Of a stretch of DNA of 64,000 nt, positions 22,862-27,672 are shown piece after piece (position 1 is the stretch's first letter; each line of letters starts with the position of its first letter). Below the pieces are notes generated by a model. That model saw nothing but the letters and a program-made list of their open reading frames with translations, had not been told where the DNA came from and did not search any database. The DNA is taken from contig NZ_JAVIFV010000001.1 in the NCBI RefSeq assembly GCF_031157375.1, forward strand, positions 496,001 to 560,000, given 5' to 3'. Source of the stretch: Sphingosinicella sp. LHD-64 (GTDB lineage Bacteria; Pseudomonadota; Alphaproteobacteria; Sphingomonadales; Sphingomonadaceae). The position numbers and the translations under genes were made by a program.

Positions 22862-22991
22862 AACCGACATTCAGCACATCACTCCCTCTCCCCAGCGGGG
22901 AGAGGGTTGGGGTGAGGGGGTTCTGATTCCGATGGTCATCGCCGAGGCCGAGCCCCCTCACCCTGCCCTCTCCCCCCAAGGGGAGAGGGTA
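22862..22991. repeat. Second copy of the ccgacattcag palindromic element
   Basis: Starts with ccgacattcag as in the element at 17302, then ccctctccccagcggggagagggttgggg and, inverted, ccctcaccctgccctctccccccaaggggagaggg. It lies between two convergent genes, like copy 1. The right arm forms the last codons of the NTF2-fold gene on the minus strand (LSPWGERAG). The right terminal repeat is less well preserved. Confidence 0.8.
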
Positions 22992-23410
22992 AGGAGCTTG
23001 ACGTTGATACCATCTACGCGAGCATCAGCCGCCTGCTGCTGCAACGCCGCCGCCATCGCCTCGATCACCTTGTTCAGCGCCTTCACCGGCCGCACCATCA
23101 CCTTGAAGTGGACGATCTGCCCCGCCGCGTTCCAGCGGATGATATCGACGCCGTTGACGGTGAGCCCGTCCAGCACGGTCGCGAATTCCAGCACCGCCGA
23201 GCGTTCGCCGTGCCATTCCTCCAGATAGCGGAAGTCGCCACTGCCGAGCACCTCCATCGCCGCGGTGAGATAGGCGATGGTGATCGCCTTCCCCTCCTGC
23301 GGCCGATGCACGGCGGGCGATTCGAACACCGCCTCGTCCGCGATCAGCGCGTCGAGCAGTGCCGGATCACGCAGCCGCACATAGTCATGCCAGGCGGCGA
23401 TCACGGTCAT
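22958..23410 (-). CDS. NTF2-fold (SnoaL-like) protein
   Basis: About 150 residues. WHDYVRLRDPALLDALIADEAVFESPAVHRPQEGKAITIAYLTAAMEVLG, then a beta-sheet series (RYLEEWHGERSAVLEFATVLDGLTVNGVDIIRW), typical of NTF2-like small-ligand-binding or isomerase proteins. Function unknown. The ATG at 23410 is the family-like start. The C-terminal LTLSPWGERAG is encoded by the palindromic element at 22862, so the original stop has been replaced. Confidence 0.82.
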   Translation of the reverse strand: MTVIAAWHDYVRLRDPALLDALIADEAVFESPAVHRPQEGKAITIAYLTAAMEVLGSGDFRYLEEWHGERSAVLEFATVLDGLTVNGVDIIRWNAAGQIVHFKVMVRPVKALNKVIEAMAAALQQQAADARVDGINVKLLTLSPWGERAG

Positions 23411-23514
23411 TCCCCTCTCCCTTCGCGCGCAGCGATGACGCATTTGCCGCCGCCTGACCAGCCCGCCCGCCCAACCGGTTGCCCCGGGCGCCGCCGTTCC
23501 CTAGATGTTCACCG

Positions 23515-26500
23515 GTGAGCCAGACTCCCGCCCCGCTTCCCGATCCCCCCTATCTCCGGGGCCTCAACGCGCCCCAGCGCGAGGCGGTGCTGACCACGGA
23601 AGGGCCGGTCCTCGTCCTCGCCGGCGCCGGCACCGGCAAGACGGCGGCGCTCACCGCCCGCCTCGCCCATCTCATCGCCACCCGCCGCGCCTGGCCGAGC
23701 GAGATCCTCGCCGTCACCTTCACCAACAAGGCGGCGCGCGAGATGAAGGAGCGCGTCGGCCGCCATATCGGCGAGGCGGTCGAGGGCATGCCCTGGCTCG
23801 GCACCTTCCACGCGATCGGCGCGAAGATGCTCCGCCGCCATGCCGAGCTGGTCGGCCTCAAGAGCAATTTCACCATCCTCGACACCGACGACCAGCTCCG
23901 GCTGCTCAAGCAGATCATCCTCGCCGCCGACATCGACGAGAAACGCTGGCCCGCCCGCCTGCTCGCCGGGATGATCGACCGCTGGAAGAACAAGGGCTGG
24001 ACGCCGGATCAGGTCGATGCCGGCGAGGCGGAGGGCTATGCCAACGGCAAGGGCGCGCAGCTCTACAAACTCTATCAGGCGCGCCTGCGCGATCTCAACG
24101 CCTGCGATTTCGGCGATCTCCTGCTCCACATGCTGGTTATCCTGAAGACCCACCGCGACGTGCTGGAACTCTACCAGCAGCGCTTCCGCTATATCCTCGT
24201 CGACGAATATCAGGACACCAACCAGAGCCAGTATCTCTGGCTCCGCCTGCTCGCCCAGGAGCGCAAGAACATCTGCTGCGTCGGCGACGATGACCAGTGC
24301 CTGGCGGAAGGCACGCCAGTGACGATGGCGGATGGCTCGCTCAAGCCGATCGAGGCGGTGACGACCGACGACCTCGTCCTCTCCTGCCACGGTTCGGGCG
24401 ACTTCCGCCCCGCCCGTGTCGCCCGTGTCGCACGCCGCGAGTGCCGATCCGCCCTCGTGCGTCTGCGCACCGCCGGCGGGCGCCAGCTCATCGGCACCAC
24501 CGAGCATACCCACTTCGCCGATTTCATCCGGGCGGAGAGTCCGCAGAAATATTTCACGTATCTGATGTGGAAGCGCGATGTTGGCTATCGGCTCGGCACG
24601 TCACAAATCTACACGCGCGGGCAGTTGAAGCCGGTGATCGGCTTCAAGCAACGCTGCCTCCAGGAACGGGCCGACGCCGTTTGGCTGATCGACGCATTCG
24701 ACAACGAGAATGACGCGCGTGAGCGGGAGCATTGCCTCAGCCTCGCTTATGGGATCACGACCCTGCCCTTCGTCGCACGCAAAGGCGGGAGCACGAACGG
24801 GCTGGTCCATGACCAGGCACGGCTCGACCGCCTCCATCGGGGCCTCGACAGCGAGGCGAAGGCGCTTCGGTTGATGCAGGACCATGGCCTGTCACTCGAG
24901 CATCCCCATCACGTTCCGCAAACGGCCGCGGGCCGCCGCGCGGCGCTCAATCTGACGCTCTATGCGGAGCATCGCGGCGCGACGCCGATGCACCGCATCT
25001 CGCTGAGCGGCAACGATCCCGAGGGACGGGAAGCCGTCACGGCGCTCGGCCTCAATCCGCGCCCGTACAAGCGCAATCCGGCGAACTGGCGCTACGAGAC
25101 GCTATACCGTGACGTGGCGAAGCTCGATTCCGTTCGAAAGCTCCTCGCCACGCGCTTCGACCTCCAGCTCAAGGCCAAGGCCAATCTTCTCGGCAAGCCG
25201 CTCGCCCTGCGCCCCGCCGCGCAGGTCCGCCCCGGCATGATGGTCGCCTGCGCGGACGGCACGCACGATGTCGTGACCGCGGTGGAAACCGTCGCGGGGG
25301 GCGGCGCGGTCTATGACATCGATGTCGAAGGCACCCACAATTTCGTCGCCGGCGGGATCGTCACCCACAATTCGATCTACTCCTGGCGCGGCGCCGAGGT
25401 CTCGAACATCCTGAAGTTCGAGAAGGACTTCCCCGGCGCCGTGATCATCCGGCTGGAACAGAATTACCGCTCCACCCCGCACATCCTCGGCGCCGCCTCC
25501 GGCCTCATCGCCCAGAACGCGACGCGGCTCGGCAAGACGCTGTGGACCGAAGCCGACGAGGGCGAGAAGGTCCAGGTGATCGGCGTCTGGGACGGCCCCG
25601 AGGAGGCCCGCCGCGTCGGCGACGAGCTGGAGAGCCTGCAGCGCCGCGGCGGCCGCCTGGATCAGGCCGCCATCCTCGTCCGCGCCCAGTTCCAGACTCG
25701 CGAGTTCGAGGACCGCTTCATCGCGATCGGCCTGCCCTACCGCATCGTCGGCGGTTTCCGTTTCTACGAGCGCGCCGAAATCCGCGACGCCCTCGCGTAC
25801 CTGCGCGTCATCGCCCAGCCCGCCGACGACCTCGCCTTCGAGCGCATCGTCAACGTCCCCAAGCGCGGTCTCGGCGACAAGGCGGTGGCCAAGCTCCACA
25901 GCCTCGCCCGCGCCGAGGGCATCCCGCTCTCCTTGGCGGCCGCACAGATCCTCGACACGGACGAGCTGACCGGCGCCGCCCGCCGCAGCCTTGGCAACCT
26001 CGTCACCGATTTCGCCCGCTGGCGCGCCCGCCTCGACGATCTCCCCCATCCCGAGCTCGCCCGCCTCGTCCTCGACGAGAGCGGCTACACCGCAATGCTC
26101 CAGGCCGACCGCTCGGCGGAGAGCGCCGGCCGCCTCGAAAACCTCGCCGAACTGGCTCGCGCGATGGAGGAGTACGAAAATCTCGGCGCCTTCCTCGAGC
26201 ACGTCTCCCTCGTCATGGACAATGATGCGGATCCGCAGGCGGACAAGGTCACGATCATGACCATCCACGCCGCCAAGGGGCTGGAGTTCGACACCGTCTT
26301 CCTCGCCGGCTGGGAGGAAGGCGTCTTCCCCTCGCAGCGCGCACTCGACGAAGGCGGCAATGCGTCACTGGAGGAGGAGCGCCGCCTCGCCTACGTCGCG
26401 ATCACAAGAGCGCGCCGCAAGTGCTTCATATTGCACGCCGCCAACCGCCGCATCTACGGCCAATGGACGTCAAGCATCCCGAGCCGCTTCGTCGCCGAGC

Positions 26501-26886
26501 TGCCCGAGCCCCATCTCGATCAGGAAACGACGATGACCGGCGGCGCCTCGCTCTGGCGCGCCAATTGGTCGGAGCGCGCCGATCCCTTCGCCAGTGTCGC
26601 GCTCACCGACCGCGGCCTGTCCCGAGCGCAGTCGAGGGGCCCCGGCTGGCAACGCGCCGCGGCGTCAGGCCGTTTCGACCCGAACGCCAGCCGCGTGCTG
26701 GAGGCGAAGGCCAGCGCCGTCAGCTTCGGCAATCCCGGCCGCACCGACATCCGGGTCGGCCAGCGCGTGTTCCACTCCAAGTTCGGCTATGGCGAGGTCG
26801 CGGAGATCGAGGGCAACAAGTTGGAGATCGACTTCGAACATTCGGGGCGGAAGCGGGTGCTGGATAGTTTCGTGAGTGTGGCGTAA
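23515..26886 (+). CDS. uvrD: ATP-dependent DNA helicase UvrD/PcrA, interrupted by an intein
   Basis: Superfamily 1A 3'-5' helicase for nucleotide excision and mismatch repair. 1123 residues from the GTG at 23515: 765 of helicase plus a 358-residue intein. Walker A AGAGTGKT at 36-43, DEYQDT (motif II, Asp230, Glu231), motif III split as GDDDQ / SIYSWRGA at the intein, motif IV KVQVIGVW region, motif V/VI TIHAAKGLEF and VAITRARRK, and the C-terminal Tudor-like FHSKFGYGEVAEIEGNKLEID. Only after protein splicing would the helicase be active. A short repeat-like stretch (26616-26640) lies in the C-terminal linker. A TTG at 23479 is a less likely start. Confidence 0.97.
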   Translation: MSQTPAPLPDPPYLRGLNAPQREAVLTTEGPVLVLAGAGTGKTAALTARLAHLIATRRAWPSEILAVTFTNKAAREMKERVGRHIGEAVEGMPWLGTFHAIGAKMLRRHAELVGLKSNFTILDTDDQLRLLKQIILAADIDEKRWPARLLAGMIDRWKNKGWTPDQVDAGEAEGYANGKGAQLYKLYQARLRDLNACDFGDLLLHMLVILKTHRDVLELYQQRFRYILVDEYQDTNQSQYLWLRLLAQERKNICCVGDDDQCLAEGTPVTMADGSLKPIEAVTTDDLVLSCHGSGDFRPARVARVARRECRSALVRLRTAGGRQLIGTTEHTHFADFIRAESPQKYFTYLMWKRDVGYRLGTSQIYTRGQLKPVIGFKQRCLQERADAVWLIDAFDNENDAREREHCLSLAYGITTLPFVARKGGSTNGLVHDQARLDRLHRGLDSEAKALRLMQDHGLSLEHPHHVPQTAAGRRAALNLTLYAEHRGATPMHRISLSGNDPEGREAVTALGLNPRPYKRNPANWRYETLYRDVAKLDSVRKLLATRFDLQLKAKANLLGKPLALRPAAQVRPGMMVACADGTHDVVTAVETVAGGGAVYDIDVEGTHNFVAGGIVTHNSIYSWRGAEVSNILKFEKDFPGAVIIRLEQNYRSTPHILGAASGLIAQNATRLGKTLWTEADEGEKVQVIGVWDGPEEARRVGDELESLQRRGGRLDQAAILVRAQFQTREFEDRFIAIGLPYRIVGGFRFYERAEIRDALAYLRVIAQPADDLAFERIVNVPKRGLGDKAVAKLHSLARAEGIPLSLAAAQILDTDELTGAARRSLGNLVTDFARWRARLDDLPHPELARLVLDESGYTAMLQADRSAESAGRLENLAELARAMEEYENLGAFLEHVSLVMDNDADPQADKVTIMTIHAAKGLEFDTVFLAGWEEGVFPSQRALDEGGNASLEEERRLAYVAITRARRKCFILHAANRRIYGQWTSSIPSRFVAELPEPHLDQETTMTGGASLWRANWSERADPFASVALTDRGLSRAQSRGPGWQRAAASGRFDPNASRVLEAKASAVSFGNPGRTDIRVGQRVFHSKFGYGEVAEIEGNKLEIDFEHSGRKRVLDSFVSVA
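24298..25371 (+). mobile_element. Intein in UvrD motif III (358 residues)
   Basis: In-frame protein-splicing element. It begins with Cys (block A CLAEGTPVTMADG), has block B with a TxxH motif (GTTEHTHF, intein 66-73), block F VYDIDVEGTHNFVAGG and block G ending THN (intein 356-358), followed by extein Ser. Cys1, the block-B His, penultimate His and terminal Asn are all present, so splicing should work (class 1 pattern). The insertion splits GDDDQ|SIYSWRG, the most conserved ATPase site. The middle 250 residues have no LAGLIDADG motif; residues 84-160 look GIY-YIG-like. The coding DNA is locally less GC-rich than its host gene. Confidence 0.95.
26616..26640. repeat. Fragment of palindromic repeat inside uvrD
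   Basis: cctgtcccgagcgcagtcg followed by aggggc resembles the CCTGAGC...GTCGAAGGG intergenic-repeat half-site, here read as LSRAQSRG in the poorly conserved linker before the C-terminal Tudor-like domain. One half-site only; the coding frame is kept. Identification rests on resemblance to the arms at 1651 and 54173. Confidence 0.45.
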
Positions 26887-27000: not shown

Positions 27001-27161
27001 TTTCACGCAAAGACGCGAAGACGCAAAGGTACCGAGAAGCGTTGAAGCTGCGCGTTTCCGGCGAATCCGGCATCCTCTTTGTAGGCTCTGAAATTATACG
27101 CTTCGCGATGAGAAAGGCTGAAGCCCCTTTGCGTCTTCGCGTCTTTGCGTCTTTGCGTGAA
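27001..27161. repeat. Inverted repeats of the cacgcaaagacgcgaagac family
   Basis: Arm A (27001-27029, ttcacgcaaagacgcgaagac then gcaaagg) and arm B (27126-27161, the inverted cctttgcgtcttcgcgtc then two tttgcgt units ending gtgaa) face each other over about 95 bases. A third copy (27604-27630) lies inside the start of the GxxExxY gene and is in the same orientation as arm B. A shorter relative is at 26941-26956. The stretch 26928-27201 holds no gene that I can support. Confidence 0.85.
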
Positions 27162-27201
27162 ACTATCATCACATCGCCGCAGAACTGAGGTCCGAAGCAC
27201 C

Positions 27202-27672
27202 TCACAAAGGCGCATGAGCTTCATACCCGTTCACAACGCGCCTGATGCCCTCGCGAAAAGTCGCGGCGCCGAAGTTCATGAGAAGGCCCAACGGCAGATC
27301 CATCAAACGCAGATAGGTGAGGAGCTGCTTCCCGTGCACCGGCGCGAAGCGCTCCGCGCATTTGAGTTCGATCAGCAAAGTGCCTTCGACCAGAAGATCG
27401 GCCCGAAACCCTTCCTCGATCACAAGGCCGTCGAAACGTATCGGGATCGGCTTCTGCCGCTCGACCGAAAGCCCGTGTCGGGCAAGGCCCTGCGCAAGCA
27501 CCGCCTCATATACTGACTCCAGCAGGCCCGGTCCGAGCCGCTCGTGAATCCTGAACCCGCAATCCACCGCCAGAGAGGCGATCCGTTCGACATCCGCGCC
27601 GACCTCTTCGCGCCTTCGTCTTTGCGTGAACCAATCCAGCCTCCCCGCCTGAATGATCGATTGGGGTTTCAC
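27202..27672 (-). CDS. GxxExxY protein, PD-(D/E)XK-like
   Basis: 156 residues if the GTG at 27672 is used. Core: SLAVDCGFRIHERLGPGLLESVYEAVL, where GPGLLESVY is the GxxExxY motif that names the family, and FRADLLVEGTLLIELKCAERF, a PD-(D/E)XK-like ADLLV...ELK nuclease signature. Members of this family are widely scattered and of unknown function. The N-terminal FTQRRRREEV is translated from a copy of the cacgcaaagacg repeat, so the true start is uncertain. The gene sits between repeat copies B and C. Confidence 0.85.
   Translation of the reverse strand: MKPQSIIQAGRLDWFTQRRRREEVGADVERIASLAVDCGFRIHERLGPGLLESVYEAVLAQGLARHGLSVERQKPIPIRFDGLVIEEGFRADLLVEGTLLIELKCAERFAPVHGKQLLTYLRLMDLPLGLLMNFGAATFREGIRRVVNGYEAHAPL
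27604..27630. repeat. Third cacgcaaagacg repeat copy, within the GxxExxY gene start
   Basis: ctcttcgcgccttcgtctttgcgtgaa is in the same orientation as arm B at 27126. Translated on the minus strand it gives FTQRRRREE. B and C therefore bracket the GxxExxY gene as direct repeats. Confidence 0.75.

Follow-up and report, generated by a model that had tools for sequence, protein, structure and literature searches.

We identify in Sphingosinicella sp. LHD-64 an intein inserted in motif III of the DNA helicase UvrD, and its likeliest reading, which is probably the correct one, is that of a mobile element homing by means of a GIY-YIG-like nuclease of an uncatalogued type. The window analysed is a stretch of 64,000 nucleotides from this organism. 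By sequence the identity of the intein is certain, and sequence comparisons likewise establish its anatomy, the empty alleles, its conservation and, as far as sequences can, its horizontal movement.

The uvrD/pcrA-type helicase gene lies on the forward strand in an open frame at 23479..26886 (1135 codons without a stop), and profile searches place matches to the N- and C-terminal UvrD domains (UvrD-helicase and UvrD_C) on the two sides of the insert. The intein itself (24298..25371, + strand) comprises 358 codons, C1 to N358, with no stop inside and a Ser codon directly after, and it separates the GDDDQ of motif III from SIYSWRGA, with C1 following the Gln and H357-N358 preceding the Ser. It is recognized by its translation, by profile matches to Hint domains and intein ends, and by the empty sites of relatives. 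The initial annotation had described a complete intein splitting UvrD motif III, and this description holds, with borders exact to the base. The start of the frame can be given as TTG at 23479 or GTG at 23515, for computed spliced products of 777 and 765 residues, respectively; the latter start is the one implied by the 765-residue product expected in that annotation. When the N-extein was searched against the organism's own 3.9-Mb genome, it matched the intein-split UvrD and one other long frame near 63.2 kb of the window, the latter across only ~50 residues, and thus no second intact UvrD was seen. The split gene is the only full UvrD found in this genome, and the insert is its only Intein_splicing match.

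Other features were observed near the gene. An inverted-repeat cluster (CCCTCTCCCC/GGGGAGAGGG) lies upstream of it, at 22884-22994 of the window. At 27001-27162 there is a palindromic element with 25-base arms that are 100% complementary, adjoining a GxxExxY / PDDEXK_3 gene (27202-27672, minus strand); its pattern has four matches in the genome (with at most 2 mismatches), three of them at the window locus.

Searched alone, the insert matched above cut-off the profiles Pfam Intein_splicing (E 2.4e-10), TIGR01443 (intein C-terminal region, 1.6e-7, residues 338-358) and TIGR01445 (intein N-terminal region, 9.5e-6), all of which bear out its assignment as an intein. Its PDB sequence match is the Spl DnaX mini-intein (E 2.2e-4). 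The predicted model contains a Hint fold made up of residues 1-81 and 300-358, and the 50 matches listed in a structure search with the whole model were all inteins, intein-like proteins or hedgehog Hint domains, with PI-SceI at the top. Conservation was read from an alignment of 95 inteins (A4), consisting of the window copy, 75 of 80 bacterial loci and 19 of 80 viral loci chosen as full length; L040 and L113 were left out for frame breaks and L087, L108 and L112 for contig ends. A domain alignment (A5, 94 rows) holds the A4 rows minus L106. The splicing nucleophile Cys1 (24298..24300, +) is Cys in all 95 rows of A4. In block B, T67-T-E-H70 (24496..24507, +), H70 is kept in 95/95 rows and T67 in 85/95, with Ser in the other 10. 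Blocks F and G (25303..25371, +), where the TIGR01443 match falls, end in H357-N358, both of which are present in 95/95. Ser+1 (25372..25374, +), the first C-extein residue, is Ser or Cys in all 78 loci readable there. The earlier assignment to class 1 had relied on Cys1, a THxxH-like block B, a block F and a terminal His-Asn followed by Ser, and all of these are indeed in place, with block B as TxxH. We infer that the Hint part excises itself after translation through Cys1, Asn358 and Ser+1 and rejoins UvrD, which would be inactive while interrupted.

Residues 82-299 sit between blocks B and F, the usual place of the homing endonuclease in large inteins (PMC5050341). No Pfam, NCBIfam or PHROGs family matched this region of the window intein. 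Across the 94 members of A5, no Pfam family occurred in more than two members and no nuclease was among the families listed (25 of 30), while PHROGs gave two families with one member each; a domain-profile sequence search of the PDB returned only tektin (E 0.67). AlphaFold produced a two-part model of residues 82-299, with a mean pLDDT of 94.3 within the whole intein and 92.0 alone. We propose that the region is a homing endonuclease in which a cutting module (residues 82-166) would be joined to a possible DNA-reading module (residues 171-299).

The first of these, the N module (24541..24795, +), is GIY-YIG-like as judged from models, profile comparisons and viral structure matches. Its predicted core runs strand, strand, helix, strand, helix, which we take to be the order of the GIY-YIG core. 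Y88 (24559..24561, +; predicted strand 85-92) aligns with the Tyr of the GIY motif, R98-L99-G100 (24589..24597, +) stands at the place of the YIG motif, R119 (24652..24654, +) lies in the predicted first helix (115-122), and E144 (24727..24729, +; helix 137-151) aligns with the conserved GIY-YIG Glu. Y88, R98, G100, R119 and E144 are each kept in 94/95 inteins and occur all together in 92/95; the three inteins short of the set comprise one partial deletion and two single changes. Seven residues (Y88, M90, R98, G100, R119, W129 and E144) are invariant among 32 diverse N modules. The YIG Tyr is missing from the second strand, where Arg replaces it and the motif Gly is retained; the fetched T5orf172 rows often show Lys at this position.

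Against a profile of 29 GIY-YIG domains the N module scored 24.6 across 64 columns, with Y88, G100 and E144 in register with the Tyr, Gly and Glu of that profile; R119 did not fall on the family Arg in this alignment. The background consisted of 35 other comparisons, in which the C module versus LAGLIDADG scored 19.9, two mirror-image controls gave 20.3 and 22.6, and none of the 32 left over exceeded 15.6; the positive control, T5orf172 versus GIY-YIG, scored 31.3. A more diverse N-module alignment scored 21.5 against GIY-YIG, a value reached by 0/150 column shuffles (maximum 18.1). A merged GIY-YIG and T5orf172 profile gave 14.6 across 19 columns, which 3/150 shuffles reached, and global alignment of the N module to GIY-YIG gave a 2% probability. 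Membership of the N module in T5orf172 was rejected, as the T5orf172 profile alone scored at noise. That profile was built from 12 of the 19 rows fetched (L238 was mis-cut, L239, L240, L242 and L243 were GIY-like or short, and L241 and L244 were not taken), and the LAGLIDADG_3 profile from 8 of 9. Given that 21.5 lies above all shuffles but that the merged, global and T5orf172 scores are low, the GIY-YIG likeness of the N module is real but weak, and because both the YIG Tyr and a curated profile match are missing, the domain is not filed as a GIY-YIG member.

Structure searches and conservation also bear on this module. In a viral structure library the top three matches (E 8e-12 to 4e-8) were phage proteins belonging to or resembling the same family, of which one is named a helicase and another a methyltransferase; among the next 47 matches listed, 13 bear the name of a homing, GIY-YIG, Seg or NUMOD-type endonuclease or simply of an endonuclease, all of them weak (E 0.009-0.21) and amid unrelated or unnamed proteins. 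No GIY-YIG chain was named in the best 50 of 571 PDB structure matches to the insert model. Within the intein, conservation is highest in the N module, whose mean pair identity over 76 bacterial rows is 0.56 compared to 0.51 and 0.54 for the Hint parts and 0.42 for the second module. The dN/dS of the N module was 0.01-0.18 in 9 of 12 pairs hand-picked as near neighbours, these 9 being the computable ones, and the Hint parts are also under purifying selection.

The best surviving alternative takes the insert for a LAGLIDADG endonuclease, the type usually found in inteins, that has diverged strongly, and the GIY-YIG likeness of its first half for a coincidence. The C module (residues 171-299; 24808..25194, +) is where such a reading finds its evidence, since residues 185-284 are predicted as helix, strand, strand, helix, strand, helix, an order close to one LAGLIDADG half, and 20 of the best 50 of 571 PDB structure matches to the insert model, including ranks 1-3, are homing endonucleases. 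We take these 20 to be LAGLIDADG enzymes. But all of these matches are weak (E 0.03-0.44, with none below 0.03), a profile comparison against eight LAGLIDADG_3 sequences gave the C module 5.6% across 30 columns (score 19.9), and a Pfam LAGLIDADG match is absent both from the window insert and from the families listed for the 94 A5 rows. Furthermore, the near-invariant Tyr, Arg, Gly, Arg and Glu set belongs to the N module. A LAGLIDADG origin of the whole region is accordingly unlikely in our estimate, and secondary structure together with the PDB matches suggests that the C module is possibly a LAGLIDADG-like DNA-reading half-domain. The preferred reading joins a GIY-YIG-like cutter to a LAGLIDADG-like reader, and we hold the cutter part with more confidence than the reader part.

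Bacterial relatives of the intein come from a single pass over 84,980 species genomes with one C-terminal peptide pattern, which had 540 matches; this pass yielded 203 relatives, and the best 80 of the 203 were kept. Among these 80, Cys1 directly follows the motif III Gln in all 77 loci readable on the N side, and His-Asn is followed by Ser or Cys in all 78 readable on the C side. The 63 rows with enough of both exteins for trees come from Pseudomonadota, Actinomycetota, Acidobacteriota, Chloroflexota, Dormiibacterota and Kaiseribacteriota, plus unplaced bins, and the same helicase site is occupied in at least six phyla; locus titles are the submitters' own, and many loci are metagenome bins. 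Sphingomonad titles are carried by four of the best 80 loci. Within the window's family, one of 148 other genomes examined has the intein (Sphingomonas horti), and in a class sample of 385 genomes the full intein was found in the window's own genome only, with short hits in seven others. One apparent relative, G039, the third genome listed for the family, was dismissed as chance; as judged by eye, its hit is short and weak and runs antisense to a peptidase-like frame. The initial annotation was thus right that the intein is rare in sphingomonads, but it is no isolated oddity, given the same site across many phyla.

Two loci show altered copies. In Sphingopyxis sp. PET50 (L040:3501-4577) the intein has frame breaks and the extein pieces are in one frame, which reflects either decay or a faulty assembly. 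At the same UvrD site of an actinomycete, the intein (L106:3501-4481) is missing part of the N module and keeps the splicing residues, and it looks like a step towards a mini-intein.

Comparison with uninterrupted UvrD confirms the insertion from the other side: in 31/31 uvrD copies from 30/30 other genomes of the genus and order, GDDDQ runs directly into SIY, and the N-extein of the nearest empty relative is 94% identical. Over the 100 bases directly downstream of the insertion, the window shares 94% identity with S. horti, whereas its identity to 17 empty copies from the same genus averages 84% and reaches 89% at best; of 217 windows along the gene this stretch has the largest excess likeness to S. 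horti (rank 1). The upstream flank has no such excess (rank 94 of 217). Coarse flank bins against eight relatives had given no clear step, a result that the finer 17-copy test reversed on the downstream side only. This test concerns one pair and overlapping windows; within that scope, the downstream excess is what one-sided co-conversion would leave. The third-position GC of the intein (0.82) and of its N module (0.78) is below that of the exteins (0.90), in keeping with an outside origin.

Trees of inteins and exteins conflict as well. In quick trees of the 63 rows, the extein of the gammaproteobacterium Halorhodospira falls among gammaproteobacteria and its intein among alphaproteobacterial inteins; 32 of these rows were used for AU tests, in which the tested groups were named after the trees had been viewed, so that the p values are flattered. 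With this reservation, an alpha placement of Halorhodospira is rejected by the exteins (p 1.4e-4, 32 rows), and the intein tree separates Halorhodospira plus 11 alpha rows from the other 20 with a support of 99.8. A position of the Halorhodospira intein beside rather than inside the 11 alpha inteins is not rejected (p 0.26); a single clade of gamma and beta inteins is rejected (p 3e-48), a result not specific to Halorhodospira. Compared to the window, the Halorhodospira intein is 60% identical and its exteins 42%. Two Azospirillum species are extein sisters (support 100), and their inteins reject sisterhood (p 1.7e-49, flattered likewise). Together, the tree conflicts and the flank footprint indicate horizontal movement, as far as it can be read from sequences.

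In Azospirillum, L099, L114 (3501-4664) and L039 (3501-4574) are extein-sister helicases with inteins of two distant lineages at one site; only L039 and L114 are in the trees.

A second alternative is that the intein splices while its nuclease is dead in this genome, the element being vertically inherited or merely persisting. Single losses do occur in the family (the partial deletion and the two key-residue changes noted above), and the Sphingopyxis copy is broken. Yet the window copy keeps all five key residues, its N-module dN/dS relative to S. horti is ~0.16, none of the 30 nearest genomes examined carries the intein at this site and the flank footprint speaks for transfer, and we regard a dead nuclease as improbable, more so than a LAGLIDADG origin. 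That the intein is instead a conditional switch benefiting the host, with UvrD splicing tied to temperature or to redox at Cys1 (speculation, first voiced in the initial annotation), is very improbable: the only UvrD found in this genome does have the insertion in its ATPase core, and a review describes inteins in replication and repair proteins at positions critical for function (PMC5874633), but the empty alleles in 30/30 other genomes show that the genus does without it. Under the preferred reading of a homing element, the nuclease would cleave unoccupied uvrD alleles at the conserved codons of motif III, and these alleles would acquire the intein on being repaired from an occupied one.

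Related inteins are also found in phages and in non-helicase hosts. A tblastn search matched 66 phage records, with a query coverage of at least 80% in 37; they include UvrD-type helicases of phi92-like coliphages (26-27% identity), with shorter matches to SPO1-type Bacillus phages and to methyltransferases of Streptococcus suis phages. An intein is already marked in the PaulScherrer and SPO1 records. A Thermobispora plasmid ATPase and a methyltransferase-like gene in another genome of the class (host judged by eye) also carry related inteins, and in the viral loci L005-L009 only the N end of the query matched.

In one phage UvrD-type helicase (L143:3501-4478), an intein of the same family follows ANRLIAHN and not motif III; given this different place, the family seems to have invaded at least two sites. 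A viral-contig terminase (Terminase_6N/6C; L005:1705-4077) also contains an intein, with an HNH_3 nuclease frame in mid-intein (L005:3258-3920) in another reading frame, which recalls the hidden HNH in a phage methylase (PMC11855218).

A wider proposition, on which we find the evidence evenly balanced, is that these inteins make up a large lineage, so far without a name, with a chimeric homing endonuclease that combines a GIY-YIG-type cutter with a LAGLIDADG-type half for DNA reading. Starting from one motif III site of SF1 helicases, this lineage would have reached several bacterial phyla as well as phages, branching off into phage DNA methyltransferases. If true, it would add, beside LAGLIDADG and HNH, a nuclease class that the literature searched does not describe as fused inside continuous inteins, and would explain a broad set of inteins in a core repair helicase whose cargo is left unnamed by the libraries searched. 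It would further provide a homing system that lends itself to direct tests, its target being defined and lying in a strongly conserved part of the gene, with natural empty and occupied alleles in close relatives, and possibly a new family of rare-cutting enzymes.

UvrD inteins are already known. A review lists UvrD/Rep/PcrA in its table of intein hosts and places helicase inteins at the P-loop (PMC5874633), so that the host family is shared but the window's intein differs in lying at motif III. LAGLIDADG nucleases are named in inteins (PMC10448857, PMC9957025, PMC5050341), and an HNH intein is named in a reference title within PMC5050341. GIY-YIG appears in a general list of homing endonuclease families in a 2020 review (PMC7765530), and a 2006 survey (PMC1564403) states that its members were not found in inteins. 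Likewise, a GIY-YIG domain inside a continuous intein was not found in the literature searched, a body outside which most subscription journals fall. The split class 3 intein AceL NrdHF is similarly associated with a GIY-YIG-type homing endonuclease, but as a separate gene between its halves (PMC7891396), whereas in the window the nuclease would be fused within one continuous class 1 intein. Relative to GIY-YIG proper (PF01541), the N module has Tyr, Gly and Glu in register and a weak profile similarity, but it has Arg for the YIG Tyr, an extended loop preceding its first helix and no curated profile match. LAGLIDADG inteins such as PI-SceI share the Hint domain and an endonuclease between blocks B and F; the window's first module, however, is unlike LAGLIDADG, and its second may correspond, on weak evidence, to one LAGLIDADG-like half. 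The inteins of Bacillus phage SPO1 (gp34.33) and coliphage PaulScherrer (bas60_0082) differ from the window's in being about 26-27% identical over the matched part, and that of SPO1 is shorter (275 residues), without most of the second module; the records listed annotate the intein and leave the nuclease type unnamed. Both resemble the window's intein in having a helicase host, an insertion directly after the motif III Gln and the same N module with its Y, R, G, R and E.
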